From: a virus
DNA: 46,154 bases
Direction: 5' to 3' (one strand)
IMG/VR virus record: IMGVR_UViG_3300035703_004055
Coordinates: 1-46,154 of that record
This document shows positions 5,449-28,337 of the stretch, one piece after another (position 1 is the first letter of the stretch; every line of letters begins with the position of its first letter). The notes under the pieces are model-generated. The model had not been told where the DNA came from. It made no database searches and saw only the letters and a list, made by a program, of their open reading frames with translations. A program made the position numbers and the translations under genes.

Positions 5449-6028
5449 TACCGAAACAACCGGTAAACCGATAGACTACAAAGCATCTTACGAAGATGTA
5501 AACAACTGGCCAAGGGTTACACAAATCGCATGGCTATTATGTGATGAAACAGGAGAAACATTAACTGCTTTTCAATCATTGGTGAAGCCTAATGGTTGGG
5601 AAATACCAAAGGAAGAGTTTTTCATTAAGAACAATATGAGTACTGAAAGATGTGAAGAAGAAGGCAGATCAATAGAAAGTATTCTGGAGTTTTTGTATGA
5701 CTATAAACAACAGGCTGATTTCCTAGTAGCCCACAACTTAAGCTTTGATCATAGAGTATTATGGGCTGAATTTATTCGTGCCGGCATGGAGCCACGCAAG
5801 GGTATGAATAAGATTTGTACCATGATGAAATCAACCAATGTTTGCAAGCTACCTGCTCCCAATGGTCGTGGTTATAAATGGCCAAAGCTTGAAGAGCTGT
5901 ACCGCTTTTTATTCAACAAAGAAATGGAAGGTGCTCACGATGCCATGGCAGACATCACTGCTACCAAGGATTGCTTCTTTGAATTGGTAAAAAGAAATTT
6001 TATCACCCTTGAAATTCCTACTGTCTAA
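5429..6028 (+). CDS. DnaQ-like DEDDh 3'-5' exonuclease
   Basis: All three exonuclease motifs are present: ExoI FFDTETTG (D7, E9), ExoII HNLSFDHRVL (D107) and ExoIII HDAMADITAT (H170, D175). The H-x4-D spacing places it in the DEDDh class with the DNA polymerase III epsilon subunit. It has no polymerase-linked domain and is a stand-alone 199-residue enzyme, likely for proofreading, end trimming or degradation of host DNA. It overlaps the RecB-like nuclease gene by 20 bases and the next ATG by one base, so the nucleases are translationally linked. Confidence 0.9.
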   Translation: MKILFFDTETTGKPIDYKASYEDVNNWPRVTQIAWLLCDETGETLTAFQSLVKPNGWEIPKEEFFIKNNMSTERCEEEGRSIESILEFLYDYKQQADFLVAHNLSFDHRVLWAEFIRAGMEPRKGMNKICTMMKSTNVCKLPAPNGRGYKWPKLEELYRFLFNKEMEGAHDAMADITATKDCFFELVKRNFITLEIPTV

Positions 6029-6282
6029 TGCAAGAACAAATTAAAGATGCTTTTAAAGCAATAACCAAAGGCACAGGCGATCGCTTACGGATTCAGCCCG
6101 AATTAAAAGTAACGAGAAGTGGAGACACACTTTACATCAGTGAGCTAAGAAAAACAACGGTGAGCATGATGGCAGTAGTTGAAGTGGTAAGCTCCGGCAA
6201 AAGCGATAAGGCTCCTATGCCTTTGGGTGCATTGGATGCACACACCTTACAATGTATTCTTAACCGTTTAAAATCGATGTAA
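6028..6282 (+). CDS. Small phage protein of unknown function
   Basis: The 84-residue protein looks like a small alpha/beta fold: a helical N-terminus (EQIKDAFKAITKG), two strands (LRIQPELKVTRSGDTLYIS), then a polar loop and a C-terminal helix. I do not recognise it. The start overlaps the exonuclease stop (TAATG) and its own stop overlaps the next ATG. It therefore sits in a tightly packed nucleic-acid processing operon and is likely a partner protein. Confidence 0.7.
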   Translation: MQEQIKDAFKAITKGTGDRLRIQPELKVTRSGDTLYISELRKTTVSMMAVVEVVSSGKSDKAPMPLGALDAHTLQCILNRLKSM

Positions 6283-6614
6283 TGAGCGAAAAAACAACAT
6301 TCGAAGCTTGGTGTATTGTTGAATTATTTGGACACCAACGCATTGCCGGAAAATGTTCCGAACAAAACATTGCTGGTGTAAACATGCTAAGGGTTGATGT
6401 TCCTGAAACAGCTAAACAACCGGCATTTACAAAGCTATTTGGTGGAGCTGCCATTTATGCCATAAACCCGGTGGATGAAGTTACGGCAACACTCACTGCA
6501 AGTGAATTGAATGCCGGACCAATTACCAGTTGGCAAGGTGAAACATTCAGCAATAAATATTTAGCAGAAAAAGCAAAAGGTGAATTGCCTTATTCTGACG
6601 ATTTGCCGTACTAA
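6282..6614 (+). CDS. Conserved phage-type protein with an SSB-like acidic tip
   Basis: The 110-residue protein has the pattern EAWCIVELFGHQRIAGK ... NMLRVDVPET ... AIYAINPVDE, a recognisable but functionally unassigned family in phages and bacteria. It ends in PYSDDLPY. This tail resembles the C-terminal DDxPF peptide by which single-stranded DNA-binding proteins recruit partners. The N-terminal part does not show an obvious OB fold, so calling it an SSB would go too far. It overlaps the preceding gene by one base and ends 7 bases before the methylase start. Confidence 0.6.
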   Translation: MSEKTTFEAWCIVELFGHQRIAGKCSEQNIAGVNMLRVDVPETAKQPAFTKLFGGAAIYAINPVDEVTATLTASELNAGPITSWQGETFSNKYLAEKAKGELPYSDDLPY

Positions 6615-7432: not shown

Positions 7433-7531
7433 GGAGAGATGGTGAAACGGATAGACGCTCGGCGCTGCACTGCGTTCGATTGCCATCCAAACGGTGCTAA
7501 GGCAATACAGGTTCGAATCCTGTTCTCTCCA
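7433..7531 (+). tRNA. Class II tRNA-like RNA with abnormal anticodon arm
   Basis: Seen directly: acceptor GGAGAGA (7433-7439) pairs with TCTCTCC (7524-7530), with discriminator A7531. A Leu-type D-arm GTG AAACGGATAGA CGC spans 7442-7458. The T-arm is ACAGG TTCGAAT CCTGT (7507-7523). Between them the best anticodon stem is GGCGC/GCGTT (7461-7465 with 7472-7476) closing a 6-base loop TGCACT instead of seven. A 6-bp variable stem ATTGCC/GGCAAT (7479-7484 with 7501-7506) has a long loop. No canonical anticodon can be assigned (GCA if T7466 is taken as position 33). CCA is not encoded. It is either a diverged phage tRNA or a tRNA mimic. Confidence 0.6.
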
Positions 7532-14633: not shown

Positions 14634-15209
14634 ATGAAACAGATAACAGTTATTTCGATACTACAGCCTTGGGCATCGTTAATTGTAATGGGTGCAAAGA
14701 AAATTGAAACTCGGAGTTGGGACACTCAATTTAAGGGAGAGCTATACATACATGCCAGTTTGGGCAAAAGTTATGGACCGGAAAAGTTATCATGCCGGGA
14801 GCTATGCTATAAAGAACCATTCAAACAATTCATCAATGGTGGTTTGTCTTATGATAAACTTCCATTCGGGCAAATTATAGGTAAGGTCAGTTTAATTGAT
14901 ACAATAATGTTTGACCTATATAGAGGCATGATAAATAATGAAATGGAATGTTCCATTGGTGGCAATATCTTCAACTTTTCAGAACAAGAACTTGCATTTG
15001 GCGATTACTCACCAAACCGTTATGGATGGTTGTTATCTCATCCCGAACCAATCGAACCTATTCCTGCAAAAGGGAAACAAGGTTTTTGGAACTTTCAATT
15101 GATAGATAAGCCCGAACCTATCAGGCATATTAAAACACCTGACTGGTGGAATGATTTATATACTGATGGAACGGGAAACTCCTTTTCAGATGCAGATCCC
15201 GGACTTTAA
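14634..15209 (+). CDS. ASCH-domain protein (PUA-like fold)
   Basis: The 191-residue protein has the ASCH opening pattern: ISILQPWASLIVMGAKKIETRSW, with the invariant Gly-Lys-x-x-E-x-R segment. YIHAS, then FGQIIGKVSLID and YGWLLSHPEPI follow as later strands of the beta-barrel. ASCH proteins bind RNA or modified bases, and some hydrolyse N4-acetylcytidine nucleosides. In phages they often accompany nucleotide-modification or RNA-level regulation genes. The C-terminal 35 residues past GFWNFQ are probably a disordered tail. No neighbour clearly points to a substrate. Confidence 0.82.
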   Translation: MKQITVISILQPWASLIVMGAKKIETRSWDTQFKGELYIHASLGKSYGPEKLSCRELCYKEPFKQFINGGLSYDKLPFGQIIGKVSLIDTIMFDLYRGMINNEMECSIGGNIFNFSEQELAFGDYSPNRYGWLLSHPEPIEPIPAKGKQGFWNFQLIDKPEPIRHIKTPDWWNDLYTDGTGNSFSDADPGL

Positions 15210-24718: not shown

Positions 24719-25369
24719 ATGAATGTACTAAGAAAAGCGTCCGCAGTGAAAACATACAAGCCAATGTATGAAAGCGGCTTAACTCAAGAAGAGTTAAAAA
24801 CAGAATTGGCAAAAGATGAAAAGCTTTATACCGAACAAGAGCAAGAAGAAATCTTCTTAGCCATTACAAAGCCGGAAGGTGAATATGGCAATGGTACTAA
24901 TGCCGGTGGAGAAGGTGACCAATCATCTCCAAATACAGGCATTGATCAGAACAATGCTAATGCAGCTGGTACACAAGCTACTGCAAATCCATCTGTCGTT
25001 CAACCTACAATTGCACCTGCGATTGCTCCGGAAGTTCCTAATGCCATCGTCGTAGATCAGTCTAATCCTAATGCAGTATTAGACTTGAACCAATTTGATT
25101 ACGACAATTTGGTAGATAAAAACTTTGCAAAGTATGAAAGCTTTGTAAGCCAATTGGCACATGAAAAGCAATTCGATTTTGTTGAGATGAGGGTTAATCC
25201 TGTAATCAAAGCGAAGTGGGAAGGTTTGCCAGGTTCCCCAATGGATTTCAAAGGAATAGAGATTACAAGCAATGTTCCTGTAAAAACAACTAGGGTACCA
25301 GTGAAGCATATTTTGGACTTGAATGCTCAGGTTCGCAACACTAAAAAGTATTTCCTACTCAAAAAGTAA
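24719..25369 (+). CDS. Virion-region protein with low-complexity linker
   Basis: The 216-residue protein has a helical N-terminus (about 1-55: LTQEELKTELAKDEKLYTEQ). A low-complexity linker rich in Asn, Gly, Ala and Pro runs from about 60 to 115. The folded C-terminal part contains FDYDNLVDKNFAKYESFV and VEMRVNPVIKAKWEGLPG. This is the build of assembly or linker proteins rather than enzymes. It lies between portal and scaffold. I do not recognise a family. Confidence 0.65.
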   Translation: MNVLRKASAVKTYKPMYESGLTQEELKTELAKDEKLYTEQEQEEIFLAITKPEGEYGNGTNAGGEGDQSSPNTGIDQNNANAAGTQATANPSVVQPTIAPAIAPEVPNAIVVDQSNPNAVLDLNQFDYDNLVDKNFAKYESFVSQLAHEKQFDFVEMRVNPVIKAKWEGLPGSPMDFKGIEITSNVPVKTTRVPVKHILDLNAQVRNTKKYFLLKK

Positions 25370-26522: not shown

Positions 26523-26546
26523 AAAGGATATTTCTATTGAATAAAA

Positions 26547-26570
26547 ACCCCGAAAACATCGGGGTTTTTT
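26547..26570 (+). terminator. Intrinsic terminator after the scaffold gene
   Basis: CCCCGA (26547-26552) pairs with TCGGGG (26558-26563) around AAACA-like loop bases, then seven T (26564-26570). It ends the packaging/scaffold transcript 25 bases after the scaffold stop and precedes a fresh promoter for the capsid gene. Confidence 0.88.
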
Positions 26571-26578
26571 TATTATGA

Positions 26579-26608
26579 TTTGTTTTTTGGTAAAATAATC
26601 TATTTTTG
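26579..26608 (+). promoter_or_regulatory. Capsid-gene promoter
   Basis: TTTG (26579-26582), an 18-bp spacer and TATTTTTG (26601-26608) match the Bacteroidota consensus with the same spacing as the early promoter. The block TTTGGTAAAATAATCTATTTTTG (26586-26608) matches the small-terminase promoter at 20468-20490 in 21 of 23 bases, so both are probably controlled together. Transcription would start near 26614, giving a leader of about 160 bases. Confidence 0.72.
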
Positions 26609-26620
26609 GTCTGTCATTTC

Positions 26621-26712
26621 GCCGAGTGGTACTCGCAATGATAACTGAAGCCGGAATATTTTCAATGATCTGTGGTACAGGGAGAATCTATTCACAGTGG
26701 TACTGGGCCTTC
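26621..26712 (+). promoter_or_regulatory. Structured leader of the major capsid gene, three GGT-loop hairpins
   Basis: Three stem-loops share the core GTGGTAC: CGAGT-GGT-ACTCG (26623-26635), CTGT-GGT-ACAG (26670-26680) and CAGT-GGT-ACTG (26695-26705). The outer stem bases differ but remain complementary (GA/TC, CT/AG, CA/TG). GAAGCC (26647-26652) can pair with GGCCTTC (26706-26712, one bulge) and enclose hairpins 2 and 3 as a three-way junction. The leader lies between the promoter and the ATG at 26775. Identical loops on varied stems fit a protein-binding RNA or DNA site; the binder is unknown. Confidence 0.55.
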
Positions 26713-26774
26713 TAAGCAAACGGCATTACATGCCAATCATCACAATATTTTTTCATACACAAAATTCTACAACA

Positions 26775-27827
26775 ATGGCAAACTATGCATTGTCGGTTCT
26801 TGCTAAAGGACAGTCAGTTGTTTCAGCAAAGAATCAAGCCCCAGAGCAAAGACGTAAAGTTCCTACAGTGATGGAATTGGCTTTAAAAAACCAAGAGTTT
26901 TCCATCCCGAACGCAAACGAACTAAGGAAATCGGACCTAAGAACGGTTGAAATCAACTATCTCAAAAATGTAACAAAAGGTAGTTCTACAAACAAAGCAG
27001 CTGTTCACACCGGCACTTATGGCGATTCAGGAAAGGTTGAGCTTACCTACATTACCCATGTAGAAACAATGAGCTTACCTCGAAAGATTGCTCAGAACAA
27101 CATCTTTGATTACCAAACCCTATTCAATAACCTGTATGAGATGAAGTGGAAAAACCTTCGTCAAAGACATGATGACTCTGCTTTGGCATTTCTAATTGCC
27201 AATCGTTGTCAACTGGCAGCATCGGTTATTGAACCACAAATTGCAAGTGCTAGACCTGGCACATGGAATGAAACATTATTTGCTTTGGAAATCGAAGCCG
27301 GTAAATCTTCCCGCTTTGCACAAAAAATCAAATCATTTATGGCAGCTAGGTTGTTTAATAGCGCTGAATATGATGTGATTGCTGATTTGCAAATGGCAGA
27401 TGAATTTGAATTTCAGCGTAACCAAGGCGCAGCCAACCAAACGAATTTGTCAAACCTTTTCTCCGGTTTAAATATCGCCACTACCAGTGACGTAGTTTCT
27501 TCCGACTATGAAAATGGTGCCGTATTGATCATGCCAAAAGGTATGTTAGCCGCATTGCAATGGAATGACGAATTGAATAAAAAGGGTGTTAACTCAGGTG
27601 AAAACGAAGTAGGTATGTTAGGTATTGCTGCCGATCCATTTGGTAGTGGTGCAACTGCAGATATCTCAATGTACACCAAGAGAGCTGATACCTCTGCCAA
27701 TATTTATGGTGGTAGTCCACAGGACATCAACGATGAGTGGGAGATCTCACTTACGATGGCTTATGCGTTGCCTCCATTAGCAACTAGCGGCGAAAGTGTG
27801 GTGCATTTGGTTGGCCAGTCAAGCTAA
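26775..27827 (+). CDS. Major capsid protein
   Basis: The 350-residue protein starts at ATG 26775; an upstream in-frame ATG (26697) would lie within the structured leader and add a non-conserved hydrophobic start. Residues 20-90 contain the N-arm-like region and TAVHTGTYGDSGKVELTYITH-type strands. The central helix-rich region follows (KWKNLRQRHDDSALAFLIAN), then SGLNIATTSDVVSSDYENGA and the A-domain-like end. This is HK97-type shell organisation by size and position after a scaffold gene. Its own terminator-promoter pair and structured leader indicate high, regulated expression. Confidence 0.85.
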   Translation: MANYALSVLAKGQSVVSAKNQAPEQRRKVPTVMELALKNQEFSIPNANELRKSDLRTVEINYLKNVTKGSSTNKAAVHTGTYGDSGKVELTYITHVETMSLPRKIAQNNIFDYQTLFNNLYEMKWKNLRQRHDDSALAFLIANRCQLAASVIEPQIASARPGTWNETLFALEIEAGKSSRFAQKIKSFMAARLFNSAEYDVIADLQMADEFEFQRNQGAANQTNLSNLFSGLNIATTSDVVSSDYENGAVLIMPKGMLAALQWNDELNKKGVNSGENEVGMLGIAADPFGSGATADISMYTKRADTSANIYGGSPQDINDEWEISLTMAYALPPLATSGESVVHLVGQSS

Positions 27828-27896: not shown

Positions 27897-28337
27897 ATGA
27901 AAAAGTATTTAGGAATCATTTGTTCAGCAATTTTTTTGCTGGCTATCCATTCAGCGCAAGCCCAAAGCGCCACTCTTATGCCACTGAAAGCAGGTGATAC
28001 ACTTGTTACGAGTTCTAGTAAAGACACCGTAAGCAAAGTGATCACTGTAACCGGTGGATATAGCGTAATGGGCATTCAGGTAAAAGCCACTAAGGTTTCT
28101 GGCACTGTTGCAGGTAAAGTGTACTTGTACAGAAGTATGGATGGTGTAAACTATACCGTTACTGACAGCTCTGCAGCGTTTGTAAATCAAACTACCAATA
28201 CTGCGGAGTTTGAAAAGACATGGCCGGGTTTTACCTATTACAAAATAGAAGCCCGAACAGCTGACGGTACAACATCCACGCAATCGGTTATTTATCGAGT
28301 CTATTACACGTTACGAAAGACTGCAATAACCCAGTAA
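27897..28337 (+). CDS. Secreted beta-rich protein encoded beside the capsid gene
   Basis: From ATG 27897 the 146-residue protein has a textbook Sec signal peptide: MKKYLGIICSAIFLLAIHSA, cleavage near AQA-QSA. The mature part is a small beta-sandwich-like domain (LMPLKAGDTLVTSSSKDT; VYLYRSMDGVNYTVTDSSA; YYKIEARTADGT) resembling discoidin or Ig-like modules. A periplasmic or surface protein between capsid and connector genes is unusual. It may decorate the host surface, exclude other phages, or be a former host gene. The longer frame from 27831 would bury the signal peptide and is rejected. Confidence 0.72.
   Translation: MKKYLGIICSAIFLLAIHSAQAQSATLMPLKAGDTLVTSSSKDTVSKVITVTGGYSVMGIQVKATKVSGTVAGKVYLYRSMDGVNYTVTDSSAAFVNQTTNTAEFEKTWPGFTYYKIEARTADGTTSTQSVIYRVYYTLRKTAITQ

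Follow-up and report, generated by a model that had tools for sequence, protein, structure and literature searches.

A conserved array of same-loop RNA hairpins in the capsid leader of tailed phages and a candidate phage-encoded partner

The window, that is, the whole stretch of DNA analysed here, is a 46-kb virus record (IMGVR_UViG_3300035703_004055, 46,154 nucleotides) of a tailed phage with an integrase. On its plus strand, the upstream terminase-portal-scaffold unit ends at an intrinsic terminator (26543-26569) composed of an 11-bp hairpin and a T run, the strongest plus-strand terminator from 20.5 to 40.3 kb of the window. A Bacteroidota-type promoter, TTTG-N18-TATTTTTG, is readable in the sequence immediately downstream (26579-26608, + strand), and the major capsid protein gene follows with its ATG at 26775 (26775-27827, + strand; phrog_7231, head and packaging, E 8e-21), its product being homologous to the major capsid protein of phage Pan5. 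The leader between promoter and ATG heads a capsid-tail gene series of roughly 12 kb and carries an array of plus-strand stem-loops, one set per genome. The three with a GTGGTAC core announced in the original prediction are present as described, namely hairpin 1 (CGAGU-GGU-ACUCG, 26623-26635), hairpin 2 (UCUGU-GGU-ACAGG, 26669-26681) and hairpin 3 (CAGU-GGU-ACUG, 26695-26705), all of them defined by sequence, hairpin scan and covariation. A fourth one, GGCAU-UAC-AUGCC with loop UAC (26722-26734, + strand), had been overlooked; it lies at -48, the site occupied by the last xGU hairpin in relatives. Between it and the start codon runs an A/U/C-rich segment without array hairpins (26735-26774, + strand), taken from its sequence and from the spacing of the last loop in relatives as the putative ribosome landing region. 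Hairpin 1 may in addition be enclosed by an outer helix, TGTCATT/AATGATA (26612-26643, + strand; 26612-26618 with 26637-26643), whose TGTCA arm and partner recur in closer relatives of the window (L002, L004, L005, L126, L127 and L135), although each single instance is weak.

Chance is a poor explanation for this arrangement. Among 200 dinucleotide-shuffled versions of the window, none had three hairpins with an identical 7-nt core inside 110 nt and one had a trio with any common triloop; GTGGTAC itself occurs eight times in the window against 2.9 expected. The whole leader of the window folds no better than shuffled sequences (z 0.44) and hairpins 2 and 3 are absent from its minimum-energy fold, so the case rests on comparison between phages and not on folding energy; in many relatives the array hairpins do appear in the minimum-energy fold. 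The three-way junction that had been proposed, in which GAAGCC (26647-26652) pairs with GGCCTTC (26706-26712), can be drawn, but it did not hold up, as these flanks pair no better than shuffled ones (p 0.15) and no equivalent occurs in relatives.

Capsid homologues were gathered from viral contigs, one Chitinophagaceae genome and public phages, and 21 of their leaders bear an array, usually of 2-4 hairpins. The expected conservation in relatives with the same capsid gene was thus observed, down to 24% capsid identity, together with some relatives in which the array is missing. Close and middle relatives (58-77% capsid identity) have GGU arrays on different stems. At a larger distance, Pan5 (ON968456.1), a public phage with Pseudanabaena as its assigned host and a capsid of 24% identity, displays four GGU hairpins on entirely different stems, and L150, also with a distant capsid, displays three GGU hairpins, again on different stems. 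Lineage-specific changes were found in the loop itself: it is closed by U-G in L144-L146, and reads AGU in L147, UGU, UGU and AGU in both L158 and L163, GGU and GGC in L003, and GGGAU in L149. The surroundings are also shared, with TAnnTTTR-like boxes 5' of the arrays in most relatives and similar terminators ahead of the promoter in many. The array is missing in those capsid relatives that lack an intergenic promoter after the scaffold gene (Polaribacter phage P12002L and its kin, L138 and L152). Two observations on individual genomes emerged from this comparison. In L005 (3001-4048) the capsid frame is split into two ORFs by a frameshift, an insertion or an assembly error. As for Pan5 and L175, the record of Pan5 names Pseudanabaena as the host, yet the virion module of Pan5 resembles that of these Bacteroidota-type phages and its post-capsid gene encodes a Bacteroidota-like signal peptide; its host assignment may perhaps deserve a check.

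The original prediction also stated that the stems change but stay paired, and this was borne out by the fair covariation test, in which hairpins were chosen by the core GTGGTAC alone with no stem filter. Taken over the three pairs next to each core, 45 of 57 were Watson-Crick, whereas 20,000 shuffles gave 18.2 on average and 34 at most. A broader set of 32 distinct hairpins from all lineages, picked by eye and for that reason leaning toward the structure, had 95.6% of its cells paired and 67 two-sided changes distributed over every pair, values not reached in any of 500 shuffles; when the register of this same set was slid, pairing dropped to 30-53%. The loop behaves in the opposite manner to the stems, since it stays xGU and mostly GGU. 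Among 40 triloop hairpins of at least 5 pairs collected from 21 leaders with no loop filter, 31 have GGU and 3 have UGU.

This combination is tied to one genomic place. A blind scan for clusters of three same-loop hairpins over 20 phage genomes or contigs (about 690 kb) returned capsid leaders and a single AT-rich chance cluster, with no array at other operons. In agreement with this specificity, when viral contigs were searched with the motif CGGAGTGGTACTCCA alone, L219 emerged as a further capsid leader, new to the set. A simpler scan of viral contigs for three copies of GTGGTAC matched mostly Gly-Thr coding repeats; a coding reason for the repeats in the leaders was rejected, as most of these leaders do not space them by multiples of three. 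Paired GTGGTAC sites are not enriched in 60 host-family genomes (77 pairs versus 71 in a reversed control), which leads to rejection of a host regulon bearing the same arrays and favours a phage partner.

The site had been put forward as a conserved binding site in RNA or DNA, and it is the RNA side of that statement that stands. The sites are near-palindromic and lie 3' of a promoter, as would befit a duplex-DNA operator for a transcription regulator. Such an operator would keep its arms, whereas here the arms vary freely with compensation, every leader copy lies on the capsid sense strand with its loop always in the same orientation, and the spacing between hairpins ranges from 17 to 46 nt. 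RNA is consequently favoured over duplex DNA as the functional form, and an operator of the DNA kind is hardly credible. Comparative sequence analysis identifies the array as a genuine cis-acting RNA element that has been conserved, and gives good support to a conserved binding site in the RNA of the capsid leader.

The position of the array is constrained at both ends. It fills the 5' UTR, beginning shortly 3' of the transcription start and stopping about 45 nt short of the ATG. Relative to this ATG, the last loop lies at -50 +/- 5 in 20 leaders and the -7 box, which was assigned in 11 leaders, at -132 +/- 31, both positions being partly curated by eye. The first loop follows the -7 box by 18-27 nt; in a subgroup whose leaders carry one more hairpin on the 5' side, the distance is 40-45 nt. 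This additional element, with a 5-nt loop (UCUCC, GUCAU or UCCCC), is located between promoter and GGU array at about 3885-3906 of L129 and at the same place in L130, L131 and L142. Constancy at the 3' end speaks for an effect on translation or on the fate of the mRNA, and constancy at the 5' end, where the first hairpin is near the promoter, makes a role in transcription possible.

Such a transcriptional role could consist of processive antitermination, by which the hairpins of the nascent RNA, alone as in put or with a phage protein as in nut/boxB, would modify RNA polymerase for the capsid-tail operon. The first hairpin indeed appears soon after the promoter in the nascent RNA, 18-45 nt past the -7 box, like the hairpins of lambda nut/boxB and HK022 put just past a phage promoter; the array heads a long gene series with one set per genome, and free stems with common loops recall boxB, where the loop is kept and the stems vary. 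Against this stand the last hairpin, fixed relative to the start codon when antitermination has no need of it, the lack of a strong plus-strand terminator shortly downstream of the array in the window to be overcome, and the absence of arrays from other operons. On balance, antitermination is considered unlikely. The array also departs from nut/boxB and put in being a single set per genome of repeated same-loop hairpins with a fixed relation to a start codon. A LoaP-type system resembles it in that a leader hairpin is read by a specialised factor (presumed here), but uses a single hairpin instead of a tandem set, and no NusG-like gene was found among the Pfam matches of the window.

A beginning near the 5' end and the frequency of an outer helix or an extra 5' hairpin would also suit passive protection, in which stable 5' hairpins shield an abundant capsid mRNA from ribonucleases with no specific ligand. 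Protection needs no conserved loop, yet xGU loops dominate, and many stems have just 4-5 pairs, so this explanation appears quite improbable.

The closest precedents for the control of capsid supply by short hairpins in phage mRNA are the coat operators of MS2, Qbeta and PP7, to which the array bears a likeness in that its reader, too, is presumed to be a protein of the phage. Those operators sit on the start codon, whereas the array belongs to tailed dsDNA phages, is usually made of 2-4 tandem copies within the capsid 5' UTR and ends about 48 nt before the ATG; no array hairpin overlaps or touches the start region, the last loop staying at its fixed distance. By analogy with RNA-phage coat proteins, the capsid or scaffold protein might bind the array and repress its own mRNA, and both proteins are found in every array-bearing phage, with the array directly preceding the capsid gene. 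They are equally present in array-less relatives, however, and GGU is common to the window and to Pan5 in spite of 24% identity, while closer relatives (about 60%) show AGU or GGGAU. Together with the position of the array outside the start-codon region, these facts render capsid or scaffold autorepression rather improbable.

Hairpin series showing the same loop are also known from CsrB/RsmZ and from CsrA-regulated leaders, and this architecture raises the possibility of a sponge or decoy, namely an array that, carried by a late mRNA present in abundance, would titrate an RNA-binding protein of the host. The loops AGGGAU of L149 fit the CsrA core consensus, ARGGA. In all the other lineages the loop is xGU and not GGA, no CsrA gene was detected in any of 13 phage genomes, matching arrays are not enriched in host-family genomes, and the array lies in an mRNA leader at a fixed distance from the ATG, all of which makes titration very unlikely. 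Another host protein, RbpB, was set aside as the array partner because it is reported to prefer single-stranded RNA (PMC11697453).

In line with the original prediction, which knew of no described equivalent, no precedent for the array was found in the open-access literature searched. In Rfam, no family exceeded the gathering threshold at the leader of the window or at 12 related loci. A permissive scan of the leader gave sub-threshold matches only, centred on the terminator, and the single match above threshold elsewhere in the window is tRNA-like (7433-7531). The capsid-leader hairpin array therefore appears to be undescribed.

As for the protein that would read it, the strongest correlation is shown not by the capsid but by a 216-aa protein encoded between the portal and scaffold genes (24719-25369, + strand), a candidate trans-acting factor whose binding is inferred. 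An ORF comparison of 20 genomes showed that the virion module is almost alone in being common to all. A profile detected the 216-aa gene in every array-bearing phage tested, including Pan5 (E 2e-9) and L150 (E 1e-5), and in none of the 9 array-less relatives whose sequence covers the place, L172 and L174 not reaching there. The presence of the array needs two changes on the best capsid tree, and one is also possible, so common ancestry may explain this match and the 216-aa gene may be a head gene merely inherited with the capsid type. The C-terminal domain of the protein is confidently predicted (pLDDT 94). Neither the protein nor this domain alone has a reliable match in the PDB (Foldseek, VIA-align), the whole protein has none among viral structure models, and no recognised RNA-binding domain was found in it. 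A search for the protein in phages with another capsid yielded known relatives and one short fragment only.

Other genes of the window were also considered. The gene 3' of the capsid (27897-28337; 5945-6346 in Pan5, where it is called cement protein) has an apparent N-terminal Sec signal peptide in the window, in Pan5 and in most relatives, an odd feature for a virion decoration protein; it was discarded as the partner because several genomes with an array yielded no copy of it, while one without an array has it. An early protein (14634-15209, ORF assigned by inspection) has an ASCH-domain Pfam match, a putative RNA-binding fold, and the ORF comparison of 20 genomes listed no relatives of it in the other genomes.

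Taken together, the array is best read as a tandem site in the capsid mRNA through which an RNA-binding protein encoded by the phage acts on this messenger, with the 216-aa protein as its likeliest partner, an interpretation drawn from sequence to which a probability of about 0.5 is assigned. Each hairpin would be one binding unit, in which the protein reads the loop on a stem of free sequence, and several copies of the protein would bind side by side along the array. The 216-aa protein would be produced from the upstream unit, and the bound array would govern how well the capsid mRNA is translated or how long it lasts, uncoupled from the terminase-portal-scaffold unit, whose terminator lies just 5' of the capsid promoter. 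The effect on capsid synthesis could be repression or a boost. A more specific version, offered only tentatively and rather doubtful at present, is that this is a new protein-RNA pair of tailed phages, in which a 216-aa protein with a fold unmatched in the PDB reads a tandem xGU array that uncouples capsid production from that of portal and scaffold, loop and protein having changed in step from one lineage to another.

Tailed phages need hundreds of capsid subunits per portal, and to our knowledge little is known about how the capsid:portal ratio is set in Bacteroidota phages. A conserved and easily recognised RNA array provides a concrete control point for capsid synthesis and a testable partner gene, and array and partner could possibly be used together as a small orthogonal RNA-protein system for controlling expression in Bacteroidota. 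If the more specific version is true, capsid synthesis would be set apart from portal and scaffold synthesis by a new protein-RNA regulatory pair.
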